From: Cryobacterium arcticum
GTDB lineage: Bacteria > Actinomycetota > Actinomycetes > Actinomycetales > Microbacteriaceae
Direction: 5' to 3'
Length of the DNA stretch: 64,000 nucleotides
NCBI RefSeq assembly: GCF_001679725.1
Contig: NZ_CP016283.1
Location: 1 to 64,000, forward strand
Each line of letters begins with the position of its first letter. Position 1 is the first letter of the stretch. Shown one piece after another: positions 30,312 through 39,916 of the stretch. A program made the translations under genes and the position numbers. Below the pieces are notes generated by a model. That model was not told the DNA's origin, did not search any database, and was given only the letters and a program-made list of their open reading frames with translations.

Positions 30312-30333
30312 CTTAGTAATCTCTGTGACAGCG
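30312..30333 (+). promoter_or_regulatory. CTTA-type direct repeat before PAP2
   Basis: CTTA at 30312 and CTGT at 30323, 11 bp apart, at -39 and -28 from the ATG at 30351. The same layout occurs before DedA and the GT39-like gene. Candidate site of the regulator at 31046-31720. Confidence 0.5.
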
Positions 30334-30350
30334 GAGGGCACGCTGGGGGG

Positions 30351-31049
30351 ATGATCAGCGAAACTCACCGGAGCAGCATGCTCGTGCGGGTGGCTCTCCT
30401 TGCCACGGCCGTGCTCCTCGTGGTGGTGGGTGCCGGGCTGGTACTAGCCGCGCAAGGTGGGTGGACGGCCGCTGAGATGAATTTTCTTCGTCGGGTAAAT
30501 CTCGCTCATACCCCGCAGCTCGACAGCGTCGCAATGGGTATCAATTGGTTGTTCGGCCCCGCTGTTGCTCCCGCGCTCGTGGTGCTCGGCTGCGGCGTGG
30601 TCTTCTTGGTCGAACGGAGAGCCCTTTCAGCCCTCCAGTTTCTCGTGATCGTGACACTCCCCTGGATGGGCAATGAGGCGGTTAAAGCACTAGTCGGCAG
30701 GCCCCGCCCCGATATCGTGTCACTGCCTCATATCCTGGTTCTCGAGCCCGGCGGCCTGAGTTTCCCCAGCGGACATACCAGTTTCGCCGCCTGTCTTCTG
30801 CTGGGCATGATTCTCACTATCCGCGGCCGGCGGTGGCGCGCGCCGCTCATCGCCACGGCCATTGTCGTGGTCCTCGCCACTGCAGGTTCGCGTGTCTATC
30901 TGGGCGTGCACTATCCAACCGATGTTGCCGCTTCGATCGTCTACTCGGTCGCCGCAGTCACTTTGATCAATGTCGTGTGGCTGCTGTTGATGACACACTG
31001 GGCTAGACGCCGTCCCGGCGCAGCCCGTCGTTCGAGGAGCTTCAGATGA
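30351..31049 (+). CDS. PAP2-superfamily membrane phosphatase
   Basis: A 232-residue protein with about six TMs, started at ATG 30351 behind a G-rich ribosome site. The three PAP2 phosphatase motifs are complete: KALVGRPRP, PSGH and SRVYLGVHYPTD. It likely removes phosphate from a lipid pyrophosphate such as undecaprenyl-PP, or from phosphatidic acid. Its stop overlaps the response-regulator start (ATGA), so a phosphatase and a two-component system are made from one message. Confidence 0.88.
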   Translation: MISETHRSSMLVRVALLATAVLLVVVGAGLVLAAQGGWTAAEMNFLRRVNLAHTPQLDSVAMGINWLFGPAVAPALVVLGCGVVFLVERRALSALQFLVIVTLPWMGNEAVKALVGRPRPDIVSLPHILVLEPGGLSFPSGHTSFAACLLLGMILTIRGRRWRAPLIATAIVVVLATAGSRVYLGVHYPTDVAASIVYSVAAVTLINVVWLLLMTHWARRRPGAARRSRSFR

Positions 31050-31720
31050 CCGCTGAAGGCAAGGACCGTGCCCGGCTGCTCTTGATCGAGGACGACGCAA
31101 AGTTGGGCCCACTGATCAAGCAGGTGCTGACCGAAACTTATGAGGTCACGTTGATTGCCGATGGCGCGGAGGGACTTGCCGTCGGGGCGATTGGTGATTT
31201 CGAGGTCATGGTCATTGACCGGCGACTGCCGTCCTTGGATGGCCTGAGCGTTGTGGACGCTCTTCGACGCAAGCTCGTGACCACCCCGATCCTGTTGCTC
31301 ACAGCCTTGGGTACCACCAGAGACAAGGTCGACGGACTTGACGCCGGCGCGAACGATTACCTAGTCAAGCCGTTCGAGTTCGACGAGCTCTTCGCCCGGT
31401 TGCGTGCTATCCGCAGGGTGTTCACGGGAGAGGGTCGCACCCTGGTCGTGGGCGGGTGGGCGTACTACCCGGACAGCCGCACAATCTACTCCCCGTACGA
31501 CGGCCGAATCCTTCTCACCGTCAAAGAGAACGACCTGCTCAAGCTGCTCGCCGAAGCGCCTCACCGCACTTTTAGCCGCCAGCAAATCCTGAGCGCAGTC
31601 TTCAACACCGACGACACCGCTGGCACGGTGGACACGTACGTGCACTACCTTCGACGCAAAACCGAAATTGACATTGTCCTGACCGTGCGCGGACAGGGCT
31701 ACCGTCTGGGACAACCGTGA
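31046..31720 (+). CDS. OmpR-family response regulator of the lipid-carrier block
   Basis: A 224-residue regulator with a receiver domain (acidic pocket EDD at 15-17, phosphoacceptor Asp58 in VIDRRLPSLD, Lys in YLVKPFEF) and a winged-helix output domain (VDTYVHYLRRKTEID, then TVRGQGYRL). It overlaps PAP2 and the kinase by 4 bp on each side. I propose it binds the CTTA-N7-CTTA elements found before PAP2, DedA, DUF347, GT2 and GT39. Confidence 0.88.
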   Translation: MTAEGKDRARLLLIEDDAKLGPLIKQVLTETYEVTLIADGAEGLAVGAIGDFEVMVIDRRLPSLDGLSVVDALRRKLVTTPILLLTALGTTRDKVDGLDAGANDYLVKPFEFDELFARLRAIRRVFTGEGRTLVVGGWAYYPDSRTIYSPYDGRILLTVKENDLLKLLAEAPHRTFSRQQILSAVFNTDDTAGTVDTYVHYLRRKTEIDIVLTVRGQGYRLGQP

Positions 31721-32730
31721 CACACCGCCCCATCCTCGACAGCGACACCCTCGCGATCCGACGCGCCTCACGGCTCGTCGGCACCCGGATCGCCCTCACC
31801 TGCGCAGCCGTAGTTGCGGTGGTCATCCTCGCCGTGTTCTTGTACATCCTTTCGGAGATCCCAGCTGCTGAACTCTTTGAACCCGTGCCTGACCCCGACA
31901 ATTTACGGCTCAGCGCCGTTGAGCTACTACGCGCAGCTGCCGTGCTGGGCGTGGCCTTGATCGTACTCGCTGGGGTGATGAGTTGGTTGGTCACCCGGCG
32001 GGCAGTCCAGCCGCTGGGCGAGGCGTTGCGTATTCAGCGCGCGTTCGTCGCCGACGCCAGTCACGAATTGCGCACTCCGTTGGCCGTGCTGGATGCCCGA
32101 TTGCAGATCCTGCAACGATCGCTACCGGCCGATGACCCGTCGGTTCCCGCTGTAGCCGAGCTGCGGAGCGATGCGAAAGAGTTGATCAACATCGTGAATG
32201 ATCTTCTCGAGTCCGCGGAAGTTGGCAGTTCCGCAGCCCACGACGCCGAAGTCGTCGACGTGAACGCGGCCGTCGCCACTGCCGTGCGGTCGATGTCACT
32301 AATCGCCGTTGAGAAACAGGTCAGTGTGAAGTTCGATGCCGCCGGCCCCGCGTCCGTGCACGTGCCAGCGGCCAGCATCGTCAGGTGTGTGGTGGCCTTG
32401 CTGGATAACGCGCTGCGCTTCGCACCTACACACTCAATTGTCCGGGTGGACCTGGCGGGGACGAAGAAGACAGTCTCGGTCACAGTCCGCGACAGTGGCC
32501 CTGGCATTCAAGGCATCGATCCGGCTCGAGTCTTTGATCGTTTTGCGCATTCCGGGCACGCCGTAGACGGCGGCGGGGACGCCCGAACCGGTTTCGGTAT
32601 CGGGCTCTCGCTGGTGCGGGAAATCGCTGTGCGCTATGGCGGAAGCGTTACCGTACTGGCCAGTTCCGACGAGGGCACCGCCATCCGCTTCACAGTGCCC
32701 CGAGCAAAGCAGTCATCGCGCACTGCGTAG
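31717..32730 (+). CDS. Sensor histidine kinase with ExxE loop
   Basis: A 337-residue kinase starting at GTG 31717 (GTGA overlap). TM1 is at about 23-46 and TM2 at about 72-93. The short outer loop is acidic (EIPAAELFEPVPDPD) and includes an ExxE motif (Glu52 and Glu55) like the iron-binding motif of PmrB. HisKA has SHELRTPL (His116), and HATPase_c has VVALLDNALRFAP, DSGPGI and GFGIGLSLV. The signal is unknown; ferric or other cation sensing is inferred from the loop. Confidence 0.85.
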   Translation: MTHRPILDSDTLAIRRASRLVGTRIALTCAAVVAVVILAVFLYILSEIPAAELFEPVPDPDNLRLSAVELLRAAAVLGVALIVLAGVMSWLVTRRAVQPLGEALRIQRAFVADASHELRTPLAVLDARLQILQRSLPADDPSVPAVAELRSDAKELINIVNDLLESAEVGSSAAHDAEVVDVNAAVATAVRSMSLIAVEKQVSVKFDAAGPASVHVPAASIVRCVVALLDNALRFAPTHSIVRVDLAGTKKTVSVTVRDSGPGIQGIDPARVFDRFAHSGHAVDGGGDARTGFGIGLSLVREIAVRYGGSVTVLASSDEGTAIRFTVPRAKQSSRTA

Positions 32731-32757
32731 CCGCTGATTGAACAATGCGGGTAGAAC

Positions 32758-33408
32758 CTACGCCACCTGTCGGCGACGAGTTATCACAGTGCGAATCAGC
32801 ACGGGGACAACCGAAATCACCACGATCCCAATCAGCACAACGTCGATGTAGCGGGCAGCGAATTCGGATACCCCGGGAATGTGCGCCAGAGCGTATCCCA
32901 GCAAGACCACGCCCGTCGCCCATACCGTCGCGCCTACAACGTTGAACAGTGTGAAAAGCCCCCGGCGCATCTTGCCGACCCCTGCAGCAACCGGGGCGAA
33001 GGTGCGAACTACGGGGACGAACCGGGCGACCATGACGGCAGCCGGTCCGAAACGATCAAAGAACGCTTGCGTACGCCGGACGCTATTTCGGCTGAATAGC
33101 CCAGATTCTCGGCGCTCAAAAATTGGTGGGCCGGTTCGGTGACCGATGGAGTAGCCGAGCTGATCACCGAGGGCGGCGGCGAGCACAATCGCAGGAATGA
33201 CCACCCACAGTGGCTGGCTGATGACGCCGCTGAGGGTGAGCACCCCGGCGAAGAAGAGGAGGGTGTCCCCCGGGAGGAAGAATCCGATGAGGAGCCCGGT
33301 CTCGGCAAACACGATGGCGCAAATAGCGACGAGCCCCCAGGCACCCGCACCCGAGATGAGCACTTGAGGGTCAAGGAAACCGGAGAGCGGCAGCATCGAG
33401 TGAATCAT
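32758..33408 (-). CDS. DedA-family membrane protein
   Basis: A 216-residue polytopic protein. Conserved DedA segments are visible: ETGLLIGFFLPGDTLLFFAG, then ALGDQLGYSIGHRTG, then FGPAAVMVARFVPVVRTFAPVAAG. Members of this family have been shown to return undecaprenyl phosphate or other lipids across the membrane. GAAGGG precedes the ATG. It lies next to PAP2, UppP and glycosyltransferases, consistent with lipid-carrier recycling. Confidence 0.9.
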   Translation of the reverse strand: MIHSMLPLSGFLDPQVLISGAGAWGLVAICAIVFAETGLLIGFFLPGDTLLFFAGVLTLSGVISQPLWVVIPAIVLAAALGDQLGYSIGHRTGPPIFERRESGLFSRNSVRRTQAFFDRFGPAAVMVARFVPVVRTFAPVAAGVGKMRRGLFTLFNVVGATVWATGVVLLGYALAHIPGVSEFAARYIDVVLIGIVVISVVPVLIRTVITRRRQVA

Positions 33409-33425
33409 CCCTTCACTCTCACAAC

Positions 33426-33447
33426 CCGTTTCTAAGAAACGGCCAAG
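33426..33447 (-). promoter_or_regulatory. CTTA-type direct repeat before DedA
   Basis: On the minus strand CTTG begins at 33447 and CTTA at 33436, 11 bp apart, -39 and -28 from the DedA ATG. This is the same spacing as at PAP2 and the GT39-like gene. Confidence 0.55.
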
Positions 33448-33542
33448 AAATGCGGCAGCCCCCAGCTGAACCGGGGCGTCCGAACCATTGCCCAGCGGAC
33501 CGTTTCAGCTGTCCTGAAAAAACTTCGGCAAAAGCGGCCCTT

Positions 33543-33564
33543 CTGTGAGAAGTCTTAGACCCGG
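33543..33564 (+). promoter_or_regulatory. CTTA-type direct repeat before the DUF347 gene
   Basis: CTGT at 33543 and CTTA at 33554, 11 bp apart, 69 and 58 bp upstream of the ATG at 33612. Confidence 0.4.
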
Positions 33565-33611
33565 GCCGTTTCGCTGGGCACTGATAGTCCCATTCAGAAG
33601 GAGCGTCTCCC

Positions 33612-34409
33612 ATGAACTCAGCGCATTCCAGCACCCTGTCATCCACCCGCCAAATGCTCAACAAAGTGCCAGAGGTCACCCTCGTCTTCTGGATAATCAA
33701 GGTCCTTGCTACCACGGTCGGCGAAACCGCTGCGGATTACCTCAACGTCGACCTGGGTCTCGGACTCACCGTCACCTCGATCATCATGGCCCTGCTCCTC
33801 GTCGCGGCCCTCGTCGCCCAGTTCAAGCTCCACTGCTATATCCCCGCCGTCTACTGGCTCGCCGTCGTACTTATCAGCGTCGTGGGCACTTTGATCACGG
33901 ACAACCTCACCGACAGCCTCGGTGTGCCGCTCTGGCTCACCACAGCCGTGTTCGCCGTGATCTTGGCCGTGACCTTCACGGCGTGGTTCTTGTCAGAGAA
34001 AACCCTCTCCATCCACTCGATCTTCACCACTCGTCGGGAGACGTTCTACTGGCTCGCCGTGCTCTTCACCTTCGCGCTCGGGACCGCAGCCGGCGACCTG
34101 GTAGCCGAGAGCCTTAATCTAGGTTTCTTCGTCGCTCTGCTGGTCTTCGCCGGTGCGATTGCACTCGTGACGGTCGCGTACTTTGTCTTCCGCATCAACG
34201 CCGTCCTGGCGTTCTGGATCGCGTACATCCTCACCCGCCCCCTCGGGGCGTCCACCGGCGACCTCCTCTCCCAGCCCACCGCCGACGGTGGCCTCGGACT
34301 GGGCACGACAGGAACGAGTGCCCTGTTCCTAGCCGTCATCCTCATCCTGGTGACAGTCCTCTCTGTCCGATCGCGTAGGGCCAACGTCCAGCTCACAGCG
34401 ACCGTCTAA
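33612..34409 (+). CDS. DUF347 (COG4705) repeat membrane protein
   Basis: A 265-residue protein with about eight TMs arranged as repeats of unknown function (DUF347). Each repeat has an aromatic helix followed by a (G/E)xxAxD motif: [27 protein letters not shown], then [21 protein letters not shown] as further units. GGAG precedes the ATG. No transport activity is known with certainty. It is probably cotranscribed with uppP. Confidence 0.85.
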
Positions 34410-34467
34410 ACCGACGCCCTACCGCCGGATACCGGAGCACATCATCGACACTGTCAACGCAATCATC

Positions 34468-35298
34468 TTGGGCATCGTCCAAGGACTCACCGAATTCATC
34501 CCCGTCTCCAGCAGTGCGCACATCCGCATCGTGGGCTCACTGCTGGGCACGGGGGCGGACCCAGGCGCCGCGTTCACCGCGATCACCCAACTCGGCACCG
34601 AAGCGGCCGTCCTGCTCTACTTTTGGCGCGACATCGCCCGCATCATCAGCCGGTGGTTTCTCTCCCTGACAAAGCGGGTACCCCGTTCAGATCCCGATGC
34701 ACGCCTGGGCTGGTTCATCATCCTGGGCTCTGTCCCCATCGTGATCCTCGGTGTGGCGTTGCAGACGCTGATCGAGTCCACCTTCCGCTCCCTCTGGATC
34801 GTCGCCGTCACTTTGATCGTCTTCGGAGTCGTGCTCGGTGTCGCCGACGCCATCGGAGCAAAGAGACGCCGCCTCGCCGACCTCACCGTGGGCGACGCCG
34901 CCATCTTCGGCGGCGCCCAAGCCCTCGCACTCATCCCGGGAGTTTCGCGGTCCGGCGGCACGATCACCGCGGGCCTATTGATGGGATACGAACGGACCGC
35001 CGCTGCTCGCTACTCGTTCCTTCTCGCCATTCCCGCCGTTTTCGGCAGCGGCCTGTACGAGCTCTACAAAACCGTGCGCACCTCCTGCGGCAATGTCAGT
35101 GGAGCGTGCACGCCCGAGGTCTTTACCGGCGCTCAGACGGCGCTGGCAACCGGTATCGCCTTCGTCGTCGGCCTCGCTGTAATCTCGCTCCTGATGCGGT
35201 ATCTGGCTACCCGCAGCTTTCTACCGTTCGTCATCTACCGCATCGCCCTCGGGGTGGGACTCATCGTCGCACTCACCACGGGTGCCCTGACGCCCTAA
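34468..35298 (+). CDS. uppP: Undecaprenyl-diphosphatase (first copy)
   Basis: A 276-residue (or longer) BacA/UppP enzyme. Signatures are [14 protein letters not shown] and PGVSRSGGT, which line the active site. It dephosphorylates undecaprenyl-PP for cell-wall precursor cycling. The family's conserved N-terminus continues upstream in frame ([11 protein letters not shown]), but no ATG, GTG or TTG lies there. Either TTG 34468 is used or a rare ATC codon about 34441, which has GGAG 4-6 bp upstream. I list the TTG as the conservative start. Confidence 0.85.
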
Positions 35299-35304
35299 CC
35301 CGGC

Positions 35305-36435
35305 TCAGCGTTCCTGCGCCATGCCGTCGAGCGCGATCAGCGACACCGACGGGTGAGGTGACGTGCTGCGCGAGGGCCTGTAGACGACGCGGGAGTGATA
35401 TACAAAGCGGACCACAAAGCCCACGGCCAGCAGCAGTGCTTGCGCCAGCAAACTCGACACCGGTAGGGATTCGACAAGCAACCAGAGGGCGGTCGTTCGG
35501 AGGGCCGTCTCGCTCCCGTTGAACACGAACGACTGAGCGAAGCGAATCCACCCGGAACGGCCGCCCTCACGCAAATCGTGAAACACGAAATGCTCGAGAA
35601 GCACAAAATTGCCCACGATGGTGACGAGCGCAGCGGCCAAGGCAGCCGTCAAGTACCAAACTCCCACGGCCTGAAGCCCGGCCATGATCGCCACGTTCGC
35701 GATCGCGCCGATCGCCCCCACGGCGGCGAACCCGGACAGACGACCGAATCGCAGCGCGCCCAGCTGGGTGACGAAACGCAGACCCTGCCTGAGGTCGGCC
35801 TTCGAGGAGCCAGCCACACGCTTGCCGAAGACGAAAGGTTCCTCGACGATCACCAGGCTGCCTCTGGCGAGGATCTCAAGGAGAATCTTGAACCCGCGAG
35901 GGCGCAGGCCTGCGAGATCGACGGAGTCGCGCCGTAAAGCGAAAAACCCTGTCATCGGATCGGTGACGTTGCGGAGCTTGATGGGAAACATTGCCCGGGT
36001 AAGCAAGATGCTCCCGTTGGATATGAAGCGGCGCAGCCGGTTGTCCAGACCCGTTGACGATCCGCCGTGAAGATGGCGGGACGCGACCACGATGTCGGCA
36101 TGCTGCTCCGCACCGCTAGCCAGCAGCACAGGGATAAGTTCGGGCGGGTGTTGCAGGTCGCCATCCATCACCACGCACCAGGTGCCGGTACTTGACGAGA
36201 TACCCTCGCGCACTGCACCGGACAGCCCGCCGACCGGATCGTCCCGATGGATTAGGCGCACCGGGATCGTCGATCGAGCAGCCACCTGACGGATGATATC
36301 CGGGGTGTTATCGGTCGAGTCATCAACAAACACAACCTCCACTCCCCCGCTGTTCATCACTGCGACAATCCGGTCAACAAGGATTTCGATATTCGGTGCC
36401 TCGTTGAAAGTGGGGATGATGATCGTGACGTCCAT
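35305..36435 (-). CDS. GT2 dolichol-P-type glycosyltransferase fused to GtrA domain
   Basis: A 376-residue protein. The GT2 domain (about 1-225) contains VTIIIPTFNEAPN, FVDDSTDN and VMDGDLQHPPE (DxD). A GtrA-like four-TM domain follows (about 240-360). It likely makes polyprenyl-phosphate sugar from undecaprenyl phosphate and helps flip it. Start ATG 36435 opens the GT2 fold directly; the longer frame to 36546 runs into the promoter. It is divergent from the GT39-like gene. Confidence 0.88.
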   Translation of the reverse strand: MDVTIIIPTFNEAPNIEILVDRIVAVMNSGGVEVVFVDDSTDNTPDIIRQVAARSTIPVRLIHRDDPVGGLSGAVREGISSSTGTWCVVMDGDLQHPPELIPVLLASGAEQHADIVVASRHLHGGSSTGLDNRLRRFISNGSILLTRAMFPIKLRNVTDPMTGFFALRRDSVDLAGLRPRGFKILLEILARGSLVIVEEPFVFGKRVAGSSKADLRQGLRFVTQLGALRFGRLSGFAAVGAIGAIANVAIMAGLQAVGVWYLTAALAAALVTIVGNFVLLEHFVFHDLREGGRSGWIRFAQSFVFNGSETALRTTALWLLVESLPVSSLLAQALLLAVGFVVRFVYHSRVVYRPSRSTSPHPSVSLIALDGMAQER

Positions 36436-36479
36436 GGCCCTCACCGTTCGATTTAAATTCGTGATCCCACTCTCGCCCG

Positions 36480-36501
36480 GCCTTTGTAAGAAACGGCTAA
36501 G
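36480..36501 (-). promoter_or_regulatory. CTTA direct repeat before GT2-GtrA
   Basis: On the minus strand CTTA begins at 36501 and at 36490, a perfect repeat at 11 bp, -66 and -55 from the ATG. Confidence 0.5.
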
Positions 36502-36551
36502 GATAGACAGTCCCTCCTGCCGGTGTAATTTCGCTCGCACCAGCAAACATT

Positions 36552-36573
36552 CTTAGATACTTCTGAGGATTGG
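36552..36573 (+). promoter_or_regulatory. CTTA-type direct repeat before the GT39-like gene
   Basis: CTTA at 36552 and CTGA at 36563, 11 bp apart, -39 and -28 from ATG 36591. A TGTAGT 7 bp before the ATG could be a -10 of a leaderless transcript. Confidence 0.5.
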
Positions 36574-36590
36574 AGCGCTGTAGTTGCACT

Positions 36591-38129
36591 ATGGCGATCT
36601 CACCGAGTAGCGCGGACGCCACCGAGCGGCGGGCCCGTACGGTATTCCCTTCGACAGTGGCTGTGGTCGCCCTGGCCGCGACGCTCGTGTCGTTGGCCGG
36701 CTCCTGGATTCCTTCGCTCTGGGGCGATGAAGCGGCCAGCATCATGTCCGCCAGCCGGAGCCTTCCAAGCTTGATCGCTATGCTCGGAACCGTCGATGCC
36801 GTGCACGGCGCCTACTACCTGGGGCTGCACGCGTGGATTGCCGTTTTCGGCGCCTCCCCGTTCTCGGTGCGCCTGCCCAGCGCCCTCGCCGTTGGCGTCA
36901 CTGTCGCCGCGGTGATGATCATTGCGCGGCGCTTGGGTAACATGCGCGTGGCGGTCGCCGCCGGGGTCATCTGTGCGGTAATTCCCCGGGTCACCTACAT
37001 GGGCTCAGAAACGAGGTCCTCGGCCTTCGCTGCCGCCATCGCCGCCTGGCTCACAGTGGTCCTCTTGTCCCTCATCGGTCAGCAGACGCCAGCTCGCCGT
37101 TGGTGGGTCGCCTACGGCGTCCTCCTCACAGTCGGCCTCTACGTATTCATATATGTCGTGCTAATCGTTATCGCGCACGCACTGATTCTTTGGAGCGTCC
37201 GGGTGCCTCGCCGCCGTCTCATCGGCTGGGTGAAAACCGTCACGGTAGCAGTTGCCGCTGCCCTACCGGTCTTCGTCTGGGCCGTGCTCGAACGTGGCCA
37301 GGTCGCGTTCCTCGGGCATCGAAACGAGGTCACCCCTCATAAGCTTCTGGTGTCGCTATGGTTCGGCCAACCGCTCTTCGCCGTGGTGGCCTGGACCCTT
37401 CTGGTGTTGACGTTGGTCGCGGGTACGACCATCCGGTTGCGCGGTCACCGGGCGCCGATGGCGACGGTCCGCTTGCCTCAACTCACTGTTCTGGCAACAA
37501 GCTGGTTGCTGGTTCCCGCCGTACTCCTCATCGGCGGGTCATCGCTCGTGCCCGTCTACACGGCCAGGTACCTCTCGTACTGCGCCCCTGCCGCAGCCCT
37601 GCTGATGGCGCTCGGGTTGGAGTGGGTGACCCGCCGTCGCCCGCGGGCCATGGCCGCAGGCCTACTAGTGATCGTGCTGTGTGCGACCCCGGCCTGGCTC
37701 GCGCAGCGGCAGCCGACCGCGAAGAACAACAGCGACTTCGCACAGACCAGCGCGATCATCGCCGCGCACGCCGCACCCGGAGACGCAATCGCCTTCGACG
37801 AGTCGGTGCGCCCATCTCGAAGGCCCAGGCTTGCGCTTCACCTGTACCCCACCGCTTTTACCGGGCTCAACGACGTCACCCTCCGGGTCCCCTACACGGA
37901 CGGCACCAGCTGGCATGACTTGGCATACTCACTGTCAGACGCGGCGACGCTTGGTCGGTTCGACGGAGTGCACCGCCTGTGGCTGATTGAGCGCTCCAAC
38001 GCCGGCACTCCTGACACCTACGGCCAGGCGACCCTTGCGGCGTTGGGATACACCGCAGTTCACCGCCATTACACCCACCGCAGCGTCATTTTCGAGTTCG
38101 TCAACCGTCGAACTATTGCGACGCGGTGA
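36591..38129 (+). CDS. GT39-like polyprenyl-P-sugar glycosyltransferase
   Basis: A 512-residue membrane protein with about ten TMs (to residue about 375) and an extracytoplasmic C-terminal domain. The first outer loop has WGDEAASI with the catalytic Asp-Glu pair expected in GT39/ArnT-like GT-C enzymes. It should move a sugar from undecaprenyl-P (made by the GT2 protein across the divergent promoter) to an external acceptor. The start ATG 36591 fits the -39/-28 regulator spacing of its neighbours; no clear Shine-Dalgarno is present. Confidence 0.82.
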   Translation: MAISPSSADATERRARTVFPSTVAVVALAATLVSLAGSWIPSLWGDEAASIMSASRSLPSLIAMLGTVDAVHGAYYLGLHAWIAVFGASPFSVRLPSALAVGVTVAAVMIIARRLGNMRVAVAAGVICAVIPRVTYMGSETRSSAFAAAIAAWLTVVLLSLIGQQTPARRWWVAYGVLLTVGLYVFIYVVLIVIAHALILWSVRVPRRRLIGWVKTVTVAVAAALPVFVWAVLERGQVAFLGHRNEVTPHKLLVSLWFGQPLFAVVAWTLLVLTLVAGTTIRLRGHRAPMATVRLPQLTVLATSWLLVPAVLLIGGSSLVPVYTARYLSYCAPAAALLMALGLEWVTRRRPRAMAAGLLVIVLCATPAWLAQRQPTAKNNSDFAQTSAIIAAHAAPGDAIAFDESVRPSRRPRLALHLYPTAFTGLNDVTLRVPYTDGTSWHDLAYSLSDAATLGRFDGVHRLWLIERSNAGTPDTYGQATLAALGYTAVHRHYTHRSVIFEFVNRRTIATR

Positions 38130-38294: not shown

Positions 38295-39239
38295 TCACGG
38301 CTGCCACTCCGGCACAGTCAGTGTGACGGTTGTTCCGGACCGGGGTTCGGAGGCGATACTCACCTTTCCATGGTGCGCTGAAATAATCTGTTTCACTAAC
38401 GGGAGGCCTAGTCCGAAGCCGGGTGTGTTTCTGGCGTCCTGTGCGCGCCAAAAGCGATCGAAGGCCTGGGCGGATTCTGTTGGGGTCATACCCACGCCGT
38501 CGTCCTCGACCAGTACCTGGGCGAACCTGCCGCCGGCGGAGACAACGATCTGAATGCTTCCGGATTCGTCGGTGAACTTGGCTGCATTGTCGACGACATT
38601 AGTCAGCGCGCGAGTGAGCAGTTCCGCTGATCCATTGACAAGCACAGGCCGCGTTTCAATCACAGTGATTCTGGCCCCAGATGCCTTGTGGTTCTGGACG
38701 ACATTGTGAGCCAGTTCGTTGAGCGAGACGGGCTCAAAGGTTACTTCAAGTTCGTCAGCGCTCTCTCGGGTCAGCAGGAGCAGGTCGTTGGTCAACCTGG
38801 TTAGGCCTTCGGCGGCTTCCAACGCTGTCGTCATTGCTGCTTGATACTGAGCCGGTGTTCGTGATCGCGAGAGGGCAAGTTCGAGTTCACCCTGGATAAC
38901 GCTCAGCGGGCTGCGAAACTCATGTGATGCTCCGTCGACGAACCTTTGTTGGAACTCGTAGCTGCGCCGGATAGGGGCTAGCGCACCCCGGGCCATGAGG
39001 TAGCTCGAAATAGGCAGGAGGATGACGAGAATCGCGTATCCGGTGATGAGCCCCATGCGCAGGTTGGCGAAGCCTTGTTCGGCGGCGTTGAGTGATGACT
39101 GGCCGTCCAGTTCGGCAGCATCAAAGTCGAATGCTCCGGTGACAAAAGAGTAGATGCCCAGAGCGAAAACGCCGAACAAGATCAGCTGTACGAGGGTGTA
39201 AGTGAGGGTCAACCGGATCAGCGCGCGGCGGAAAATCAT
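38295..39239 (-). CDS. Sensor histidine kinase of the ABC exporter block
   Basis: A 314-residue kinase with two TMs (about 8-32 and 58-82) and a short acidic outer loop. HisKA has SHEFRSPLSVI, and the ATPase domain has ALTNVVDNAAKF, EDDGVGM and GFGLGLPLVKQI. There is no clear HAMP. It overlaps the response-regulator stop by 4 bp. Because the stimulus domain is small, it may read the state of the adjacent ABC transporter, as in bacitracin-type systems. Confidence 0.85.
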   Translation of the reverse strand: MIFRRALIRLTLTYTLVQLILFGVFALGIYSFVTGAFDFDAAELDGQSSLNAAEQGFANLRMGLITGYAILVILLPISSYLMARGALAPIRRSYEFQQRFVDGASHEFRSPLSVIQGELELALSRSRTPAQYQAAMTTALEAAEGLTRLTNDLLLLTRESADELEVTFEPVSLNELAHNVVQNHKASGARITVIETRPVLVNGSAELLTRALTNVVDNAAKFTDESGSIQIVVSAGGRFAQVLVEDDGVGMTPTESAQAFDRFWRAQDARNTPGFGLGLPLVKQIISAHHGKVSIASEPRSGTTVTLTVPEWQP

Positions 39240-39916
39240 GTGTCTGCCACGATCACGTAGCCGGCCCCGCGACGAGTTTGAATAATCTCGACCTCACCCG
39301 ACAAGGTCAGTTTCTGTCTCAGGTAGCGGATGTAGGTCTGCACGACGTTGCTATAGCCTTCGTAGTTGCTATCCCAGGCGTGCGTGATCAGTTCGGACGA
39401 GCTGATGATGTGACCTGCGTTACGCATGAGATATTCCAGAACGGCAAACTCCTTGGCGGTCAACACAATGGTTCGCCCATTTCTGGTAGCGGTGCGTGTT
39501 GCGGGATCGAGCGCGACTCCTTGAGCTCTCAAGATGGGTGCTTGGGCCCGGGGCGCCCGCCGCAGCAGCGCCCGAACACGAGCTAAGAGCTCAACCAGGT
39601 GGAAGGGTTTAACAAGGTAATCGTCTGCTCCGGCATCCAGTCCTTCCACTCTTTTTCGTGTCGAATCCAGTGCGGTCAGCATGAGTATCGGGATGTCTTG
39701 GTTGAGGTCGCGAATGCGGGCGCAGACGTCCATCCCGCCACGAGGAAGGCCGGGCAGCATCAGGTCGAGGACGACGAGATCGTACGTCTCAATTTCGAAC
39801 GCCTCCACACCCGCCGGGGCGGTGTGGACGACATCCACGGCGTACCCACCTTCTTGGAGCGTGCGTCGGACGACGTCCGCGATCCGGACGTCGTCCTCCA
39901 CCACAAGTAGTTTCAT
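39236..39916 (-). CDS. OmpR-family response regulator of the ABC exporter block
   Basis: A 226-residue regulator: receiver domain (EDDVRIADVVRR, phosphoacceptor in LVVLDLMLPG, YLVKPFHL) and winged helix (NVVQTYIRYLRQK, ending RRGAGYVI). Probable target is the ABC operon promoter, where a repeat with 11-bp periodicity lies at 43131-43152. Confidence 0.88.
   Translation of the reverse strand: MKLLVVEDDVRIADVVRRTLQEGGYAVDVVHTAPAGVEAFEIETYDLVVLDLMLPGLPRGGMDVCARIRDLNQDIPILMLTALDSTRKRVEGLDAGADDYLVKPFHLVELLARVRALLRRAPRAQAPILRAQGVALDPATRTATRNGRTIVLTAKEFAVLEYLMRNAGHIISSSELITHAWDSNYEGYSNVVQTYIRYLRQKLTLSGEVEIIQTRRGAGYVIVADT

Follow-up and report, generated by a model that had tools for sequence, protein, structure and literature searches.

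A two-component gene island of Cryobacterium arcticum with conserved 11-bp direct repeats before putative envelope genes

The island described here lies in the first 64,000 nucleotides (the window) of contig NZ_CP016283.1 of Cryobacterium arcticum (assembly GCF_001679725.1), an actinobacterium of the family Microbacteriaceae. Between 30.3 and 38.1 kb, the genes for a PAP2 phosphatase, a response regulator and a sensor kinase are followed by DedA on the opposite strand, by DUF347 and uppP, by a GT2-GtrA gene on the opposite strand and by GT39. Five of the promoters carry direct repeats whose half-sites are spaced by exactly 11 bp, on the same strand as the gene they precede. This regulatory signal is real and conserved among relatives of the regulator, the box, its spacing and the local gene set being best supported. 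Through these boxes, the OmpR-type regulator at 31046-31720 probably activates its own operon together with the neighbouring envelope genes. The genes of the island and its immediate neighbour are:

30351..31049, plus strand: PAP2 phosphatase, 232 aa (PF01569, 1.3e-21; motifs K-x6-RP, PSGH and SR-x5-H-x3-D, by eye)
31046..31720, plus strand: OmpR/PhoB-type response regulator, 224 aa, which may bind the boxes (domain match)
31717..32730, plus strand: sensor histidine kinase, 337 aa, with an outside loop of ~25 residues containing E52-L-F-E55 (loop by eye)
32758..33408, minus strand: DedA (VTT domain), 216 aa, with the stretches FAETGLLIGFFLPGD and ARFVPVVRTFAP (family match)
33612..34409, plus strand: DUF347 (PF03988) membrane protein, 265 aa, with four repeats and eight predicted helices
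34429..35298, plus strand: UppP/BacA undecaprenyl-diphosphatase, downstream of DUF347; start approximate, own box none seen
35305..36435, minus strand: GT2-GtrA polyprenyl-phosphate glycosyltransferase-like protein, 376 aa (ATG 36435)
36591..38129, plus strand: GT39/PMT_2-type mannosyltransferase-like membrane enzyme, 512 aa
38295..39916, minus strand: second OmpR-type two-component system

The direct-repeat boxes are located as follows:

30312..30326, plus strand: box 1, CTTA-N7-CTGT, 39/28 bp before the PAP2 ATG (30351), heading the PAP2-regulator-kinase operon
33433..33447, minus strand: box 2, CTTG-N7-CTTA, 39/28 bp before the DedA ATG (33408)
33543..33557, plus strand: box 3, CTGT-N7-CTTA, 69 bp before the DUF347 ATG (33612)
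36487..36501, minus strand: box 4, CTTA-N7-CTTA, 66 bp before the GT2-GtrA ATG (36435)
36552..36566, plus strand: box 5, CTTA-N7-CTGA, 39/28 bp before the GT39 ATG (36591)

All five repeats pointed out in an earlier, sequence-only reading of this DNA (at 30312, 33447, 33543, 36501 and 36552) are present, and the distances of 39 and 28 bp from the start codon are exact at PAP2, DedA and GT39. The half-sites had been termed CTTA-type; every box does have one CTTA, but both halves are CTTA in one site only, the other halves being CTTG, CTGT or CTGA. Paired CTTA halves 11 bp apart occur once in the window, compared with 0.13 expected. The motif is better expressed as TTCTKAG-N4-TTCTKAG. The five boxes are the top five window sites of their own model; when each is left out in turn, the ranks among 127,958 positions are 7 (PAP2), 4 (DedA), 60 (DUF347), 5 (GT2) and 6 (GT39), and consequently the DUF347 box is the weakest of the five.

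Conservation is apparent in loci that contain a relative of the regulator. From 80 loci obtained in a first scan, the first 42 (L061-L102; 46-83% identity, actinobacterial except for the label of L073) were used, and the other 38, with 42% identity or less and nearly all from other phyla, were dropped. Addition of six loci from other genomes of the genus gave a set of 48 loci, some of them closely related, from which the window was excluded. A half-site model built from the window sites, applied at a threshold score of 15 to 870,900 bases, gives 70 sites in the 48 loci, versus a mean of 3.6 (maximum 17) for 60 column-shuffled models that kept the same 11-bp repeat. The same half-site at periods of 8, 9, 10, 12, 13, 14, 15, 16 and 21 gives 1-8 sites each. 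A start codon lies 39/40 bp downstream at 20 of the 70 sites (shuffled mean 0.12, maximum 3), and at least one box is observed in 34 of the 48 loci.

The position of the boxes relative to particular genes is preserved as well. A box is found 39 bp before PAP2 in L061, L073, L142 and L143, before DedA at 39/28 bp in L141, and before DUF347 at 69/70 bp in L061-L063, L141 and L143, and the regulator gene itself is preceded by a box in L069, L073, L078, L081, L091 and L092. The targets at 39/40 bp in relatives include PAP2, DedA and DUF347 homologues, a ferric-reductase-like protein in L095, L096 and L100 (Pfam for L095), an open reading frame (ORF) in L092 that appears VTC-like by eye, and further unnamed ORFs.

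A second sample took a single genome from each genus of the family (60 in all), and 19 of these have the regulator at E 1e-60. It provides 20 regulator stretches, two of which are identical to earlier loci, and 18 control stretches, 14 from the same genomes and 4 from family genomes lacking the regulator. The regulator stretches contain 26 box matches and the controls 0; five of these boxes have a start codon at 39/40 bp, and nine have A at +28 together with T at +32, counted from the box. With gene probes drawn partly from the first locus set, DedA is detected near the regulator in 11 of the 20 stretches (p 1.4e-4), DUF347 in 9 (p 0.001), PAP2 in 5 (p 0.03), and GT39 and UppP in 3 each (p 0.14 each), against 0 of 18 controls in every case. 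A motif model over related regulator loci had been proposed in the sequence-only reading; built as described, it finds the repeats conserved upstream of relatives of PAP2, DedA, DUF347, GT39 and the regulator (70 sites versus 3.6, and 26 versus 0).

On the genome scale, the exact pattern TCTKDG-N5-TCTKDG gives 10 matches in the 4.35 Mb of C. arcticum versus 9 for a reversed-pattern control, and 4 of the 10 fall within the 6.3 kb of the island. Six relatives of the genus give 51 matches, of which 11 are at the regulator locus, versus 63 for the control. As the genome totals are at chance level but the matches are clustered at the regulator locus, the regulon is read as local. The contig beyond the window (57.8 kb fetched) contributes one box match. 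A looser pattern, CTKDG-N6-CTKDG, was abandoned in favour of the longer one, with 145 matches in the same genome versus 283 for its reversed control and no signal. A chromosomal site, TCTTGGTAATGTCTGAG at G000:C1:933597, also occurs in the genus genome G022, with G rather than A at +28.

Some further arrangements were noted in the loci examined. The boxes before the regulator at L091:7435-7450 and L069:9940-9955 are near-palindromic and score on both strands, and the L091 box faces a divergent ORF that by eye resembles an FTR1 iron permease. Loci of paralogous regulators (L150, L151, L153, L314, L327, L328, L330 and L331) have an 11-bp-spaced repeat of their own, of TTTCTTCC(A) type, which is found close to the kinase or in the interval separating VIT from ferric-reductase-like genes. 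On a plasmid of Rhizobium, an alphaproteobacterium, the box-like ATTCTTAGATGCGACTTAG is located at L235:8395, 93 bp before a response regulator and in a locus with PAP2 and DUF347, possibly by chance. L073 is a contig deposited as Stenotrophomonas maltophilia, yet with the present actinobacterial island and its boxes, which is probably due to assembly contamination.

The promoter layout was analyzed at 48 unique sites, window sites included, with a start codon 20-130 bp downstream. Where the start codon lies at 39/40 bp, A is found at +28 in 19 of 20 sites and T at +32 in 20 of 20; outside the window, both are found in 17 of 17. The remaining sites have T at +32 in 21 of 28 cases. Neither position is part of the box model. 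The conserved A and T agree with a -10 hexamer, nAnnnT, at +27 to +32, with a putative transcription start at about +39. The corresponding candidates in the window are:

30339..30344, plus strand: putative -10 CACGCT of the PAP2 operon (+27..+32 from the box)
33415..33420, minus strand: putative -10 GAGAGT of DedA
33570-33575, plus strand: putative -10 TTCGCT of DUF347 (T at +32 kept, A at +28 not)
36469..36474, minus strand: putative -10 GAGAGT of GT2-GtrA (predicted leader ~27 nt)
36579..36584, plus strand: putative -10 TGTAGT of GT39 (T at +32 kept, A at +28 not)

With the -10 at a fixed distance, the box would occupy the -35 position, and the combination of this -10 with the -39/-28 spacing makes many targets look leaderless. 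The predicted start coincides with the start codon at PAP2, DedA and GT39 and lies 27-30 nt upstream of it at GT2-GtrA and DUF347.

The assignment of 31046-31720 to an OmpR-type regulator is confirmed by its Response_reg and Trans_reg_C domains, and the partner kinase by HisKA-HATPase. The recognition-helix residues T197-Y201 (TYVHY) are invariant in 28 aligned regulators, and a chromosomal paralogue, 46% identical, is found at G000:C1:2185134. The description of the boxes as PmrA-like is accurate for the tandem half-sites 11 bp apart and does not extend to the regulator, which scores 119.6 bits against the PmrA model NF007928 (NCBIfam; cut-off 330), with five other regulator families scoring higher. 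In an alignment to 4s04, PmrA Asn188 falls in a two-residue gap and Asn196 corresponds to Tyr201, while His195 and Arg210 are kept; base reading by PmrA-type chemistry is ruled out by the replacement of these two asparagines. Furthermore, an 11-bp direct repeat is generic for OmpR/PhoB regulators and, being common to them, is not diagnostic of PmrA. By these tests the island does not qualify as a PmrA system, though it may function in a similar way.

The links to undecaprenyl phosphate that had been assigned to the island genes are supported for three of the proteins, and the overall role is plausible by family. The PAP2 motifs are intact (by eye), and UppP exceeds its family cut-offs (TIGR00753, 243.9 vs 217.5; NF001392, 329.1 vs 308). 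For the COG0586 undecaprenyl-phosphate flippases, the available part of one source describes acidic residues in the first re-entrant helix and two arginines in the second (PMC10127716), and FAETGLLIGFFLPGD and ARFVPVVRTF of DedA match this signature by eye. Against the UptA model NF052604 (NCBIfam), DedA scores 66.4 bits, under the cut-off of 250. Collectively, a lipid-carrier theme of the island appears plausible from these family assignments. Regarding the uppP start, no ATG or GTG is present where expected (34409-34468), and the first common in-frame start, TTG 34468, seems to truncate the first helix, so that a rare start codon or an error in the sequence may be involved.

The DUF347 protein matches PF03988 with 204.8 bits (gathering score 28.2) in four stretches. 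Residues D42, D97, D162 and D217, one per repeat, together with E38, are invariant in 38 aligned sequences. The structural model consists of eight helices; no trusted structural match to it was found, and a missing match does not make the fold new. Within the genus, 7 of 25 Cryobacterium genomes (own included) have the regulator, at 68% identity or more, and DUF347 is present in 7 of these 7 vs 4 of the 18 without it (Fisher p 6.9e-4, kinship uncorrected); two of these four show short frames only. In G018, DUF347 and the regulator share one contig, some 116 kb apart.

Across the phylum, DUF347 occurs in 18 of 296 sampled genomes. The set compared comprises 19 loci from 16 genomes; it excludes the genome of C. 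arcticum, G113 (a partial match containing stops) and the partial match G219:C4:157597, and a second copy, G219:C14:24158, falls inside a stretch already taken. A regulator relative accompanies DUF347 in 8 of the 19 loci vs 2 of 19 controls (p 0.03) and a kinase in 7 vs 2 (p 0.06), and seven of the eight regulator cases belong to the eight loci with the best DUF347 matches. Five plasmid DUF347 loci, picked by hand from 254 matching records and not counted, each have DedA, PAP2, UppP or a two-component gene within 5 kb. Among the annotated plasmid loci L233, L234, L237 and L238, DUF347 is next to DedA (Deinococcus), near efeUOB and DedA (Priestia) or near the iron exporter MbfA and PAP2 (Bradyrhizobium), and the regulator is next to PAP2, VTT and VIT genes (Frigoribacterium). 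In one Curtobacterium locus DUF347 is fused to an alpha/beta hydrolase (L077:6219-8102 and L069:2042-3310 were examined), and longer DUF347 proteins of 414-429 aa have a C-terminal part without Pfam match.

The window belongs to a separate 117,792-bp contig, one of the three in the 4.35-Mb genome, which is taken for a putative plasmid. A P-type ATPase and two ArsR-like ORFs adjoin the island at 25.4-29.5 kb (translations read by eye), and the contig also has a P-type ATPase-like ORF at 9.7-12.0 kb and resolvase-like and ParA-like ORFs (by eye). Close DNA relatives of the stretch at 26.0-40.0 kb were not found on annotated plasmids; relatives of the regulator, with 44-57% identity, are found on six plasmid records (E 1e-40). 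Among named genomes, the regulator has its nearest relatives in Cryobacterium. In G022 (L141), the regulator, kinase, DedA and DUF347 are grouped on a 4.1-Mb contig. None of the best 25 box sites of the window lies upstream of the second two-component system (38295-39916), relatives of which adjoin the island in L061, L063 and L142.

Iron-related genes are recurrent near relatives of the regulator. In the second sample, UPF0014/FetB-like genes are detected in 6 of 20 regulator loci vs 0 of 18 controls (p 0.014), ferric-reductase-like genes in 7 vs 0 (p 0.006) and VIT in 8 vs 1 (p 0.015); FTR1-like genes give 1 of 20 vs 0 of 18, and EfeO 0 vs 0. An EfeO-like gene is present in L069 and L080 (Pfam M75). 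Five of the UPF0014 neighbours score 97-123 bits against FetB TIGR00245, under the equivalog cut-off of 410, and the three tested in Pfam pass UPF0014. Over the family, UPF0014 occurs in 13 of 19 genomes with the regulator vs 8 of 41 without (p = 3.6e-4), and in 6 of these 13 it is situated within ~12 kb of a regulator, by coordinates. The L314 locus has an FTR1-like match, so named by eye from the probe, with a box 56 bp upstream of it. UPF0014 and EfeO neighbours are dispersed within the DUF347/DedA/PAP2 group of a 76-regulator tree. These findings make iron a lead for the regulator family.

A self-regulated two-component envelope island is the leading explanation, and we regard it as probable. 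The sensor kinase would sense membrane stress through its very short outside loop and phosphorylate the OmpR-type regulator, which as a head-to-tail dimer would bind TTCTKAG-N4-TTCTKAG, half-sites one helical turn apart, in the place of the -35. The bound regulator would then recruit RNA polymerase to weak promoters with the -10 (nAnnnT) as their only other element, and transcription would begin ~39 bp past the first half-site. The PAP2 site would provide feedback on the regulator operon, and the DUF347 site probably serves uppP too. UppP, PAP2 and DedA would regenerate and flip undecaprenyl phosphate, GT2-GtrA and GT39 would use it to put sugar on an envelope component, and DUF347 may move a solute or metal. 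The trigger would most likely be an envelope-active metal, iron first. As regards the self-regulated regulon of the sequence-only reading, a local, probably autoregulated gene set stands, since the boxes recur before homologous PAP2, DedA, DUF347, GT39 and regulator genes, while binding and activation by the regulator are inferred.

Several observations weigh against the self-regulated envelope island. No site at score 15 is detected in 14 of the 48 loci, nor in 6 of the 20 loci of the second sample. Only 1 of 47 loci matched the GT2-GtrA probe, and G022 (L141) gives no PAP2, uppP or GT39 match in the 20 kb examined. Across the phylum, membership of DUF347 in a universal DedA-PAP2-UppP set had to be rejected (DedA 0/19, PAP2 1/19 and UppP 0/19), and the box, with 4 matches in the 19 DUF347 loci vs 1 in 19 controls, is no general mark of loci with DUF347. 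The box of L144 precedes an ABC transporter operon, a target more in keeping with peptide stress. Among the sensors, 46 rows were scanned, 7 being skipped for lack of a clear H-box (among the 39 left, L074 is in the wrong frame and L151 shows another region), and ExxE is found in 20 of 39, with ELFG in the close relative L142. The E52-E55 loop compared to that of PmrB is thus present in the window but is not a family trait, and the metal-sensing analogy to PmrB and ColS is only a lead. Regarding iron, VIT and ferric-reductase neighbours lie mostly outside the DUF347/DedA/PAP2 group of the tree (exceptions include L082, L237 and L319), and the five iron probes have no match in the eight genus loci L061-L063 and L141-L145, in a search that excluded the window; this separation and the missing matches make the iron reading weaker for this clade.

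The same box and regulon could respond to a peptide or lipid-carrier antibiotic (bacitracin, amphomycin/friulimicin, cationic peptides), making this an antibiotic-stress island of the kind governed by BceRS- and LiaRS-type systems, which are antibiotic-stress responses. Intramembrane-sensing kinases are a class with a short loop, like that of the present sensor, and UppP, PAP2 and DedA suit the recycling of undecaprenyl phosphate. The L144 box, moreover, lies 39 bp before an ABC ATPase (by Pfam), followed by a large ORF resembling a permease, a DedA match and an ORF resembling a peptidase (permease and peptidase by eye), and a DedA protein is linked to amphomycin and colistin in the accessible part of PMC12893004. 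However, an ABC transporter is found at one 39/40 box only and iron genes are the recurrent extra neighbours; we consider an antibiotic trigger rather unlikely. In a defence against lead or other heavy metals, UppP and PAP2 would release phosphate outside the cell and precipitate metal exported by DUF347 and P-type ATPases, according to the phosphate-precipitation model proposed for PbrB. The separate contig, the neighbouring P-type ATPase with two ArsR-like ORFs, the other P-type ATPase-like ORF and the single invariant aspartate in each DUF347 repeat are consistent with such a function, and three paralogous uppP-DUF347 operons are raised by lead in Frankia, for which export and precipitation were proposed (PMC4531530, in the portion available). 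DedA, GT2-GtrA and GT39 would nevertheless be superfluous, UppP accompanies the regulator in 3 of 20 loci and DUF347 in 0 of 19, and the DUF347 model has no trusted structural match, which renders this defence improbable.

It is a very remote prospect that the boxes, while real, are bound by another OmpR-type regulator, either the 38295-39916 system or a chromosomal paralogue. OmpR/PhoB regulators generally read such repeats, the chromosomal paralogue is 46% identical, and TTTCTTCCA-type repeats occur near such paralogues; yet the boxes accompany the island regulator across genera, even in loci that yielded no relative of the second system (e.g. L069 and L073), and are absent from the 18 controls. 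Beyond the self-regulated island itself, a tentative suggestion concerns the whole family: actinobacterial two-component systems of this type might convergently couple an outside iron or metal signal to either iron handling or an undecaprenyl-phosphate carrier and DUF347 output, depending on the group. If this doubtful but conceivable scheme applies, the iron output would be VIT, FetB-like efflux, ferric reductase and EfeUO, and the carrier output, meaning its supply and use, that of the window's group, with leaderless, class-II-like promoters in which the box replaces the -35. Gram-positive cells would thereby reshape their envelope in response to metal stress, in parallel to what PmrAB and ColRS do in Gram-negatives.

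The arrangement of the island is similar to that of Gram-negative switches responding to metals and antibiotics. In PmrAB/BasRS of enterobacteria, the half-sites are of CTTA type with a spacing of 11 bp, and the targets act on envelope lipids, undecaprenyl-linked sugar transferases being one example. The island shares with it an OmpR-type regulator on two tandem half-sites and a short sensor loop, with ExxE in this kinase; it differs in a host without lipopolysaccharide (LPS), in DUF347, in the leaderless-looking promoters and in the local regulon. The binding site of ColRS (Pseudomonas) is a different one, and its LPS targets are Gram-negative. In the part of PMC4074579 consulted, ColRS is likewise a metal-sensing ExxE kinase system over partly redundant envelope-modification genes, whereas the ColS loop has 96 residues vs ~25 here. 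MprAB of actinobacteria is a similarly autoregulated OmpR-type envelope-stress system; in the accessible text of PMC12113857, the MprA motif of C. glutamicum is TKTTAAGAAM, a single 10-bp element, the targets are sigE, sigB, htrA, bla and csp, and DUF347 is not mentioned. The lead-induced operons of Frankia also combine DUF347 and UppP, unlike the island without mention of DedA, PAP2 or 'two component' in the available text, the transport role being the authors' proposal (PMC4531530). The iron-linked paralogous regulators of Microbacteriaceae resemble the island in a related regulator and kinase and in TTTCTTCCA-type 11-bp repeats near VIT and ferric-reductase-like genes, but are separate from the window's tree group and mostly without the DedA/PAP2/DUF347 set; no paper describing them was found among the matches listed in the open-licence literature searched. 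The sequence-only reading knew of no described actinobacterial system of this form, and none was found either among the matches listed in titles and abstracts of that literature. The fixed-distance -10 with its leaderless layout, the separate contig, the tracking of the regulator by DUF347 within the genus and the iron genes near relatives go beyond that reading.

If the proposed regulation is correct, undecaprenyl-phosphate recycling would gain a dedicated, autoregulated switch in actinobacteria, with a box precise enough for genome-wide searches for further members. DUF347, an uncharacterized family with four acidic repeats, would be placed in a regulon, and its role would become testable. 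The promoter layout, with the box for the -35, a fixed -10 and no leader, would be usable for start-site prediction in Microbacteriaceae. Furthermore, the island would represent a Gram-positive parallel to the metal-envelope link of PmrAB/ColRS, in a host without LPS.

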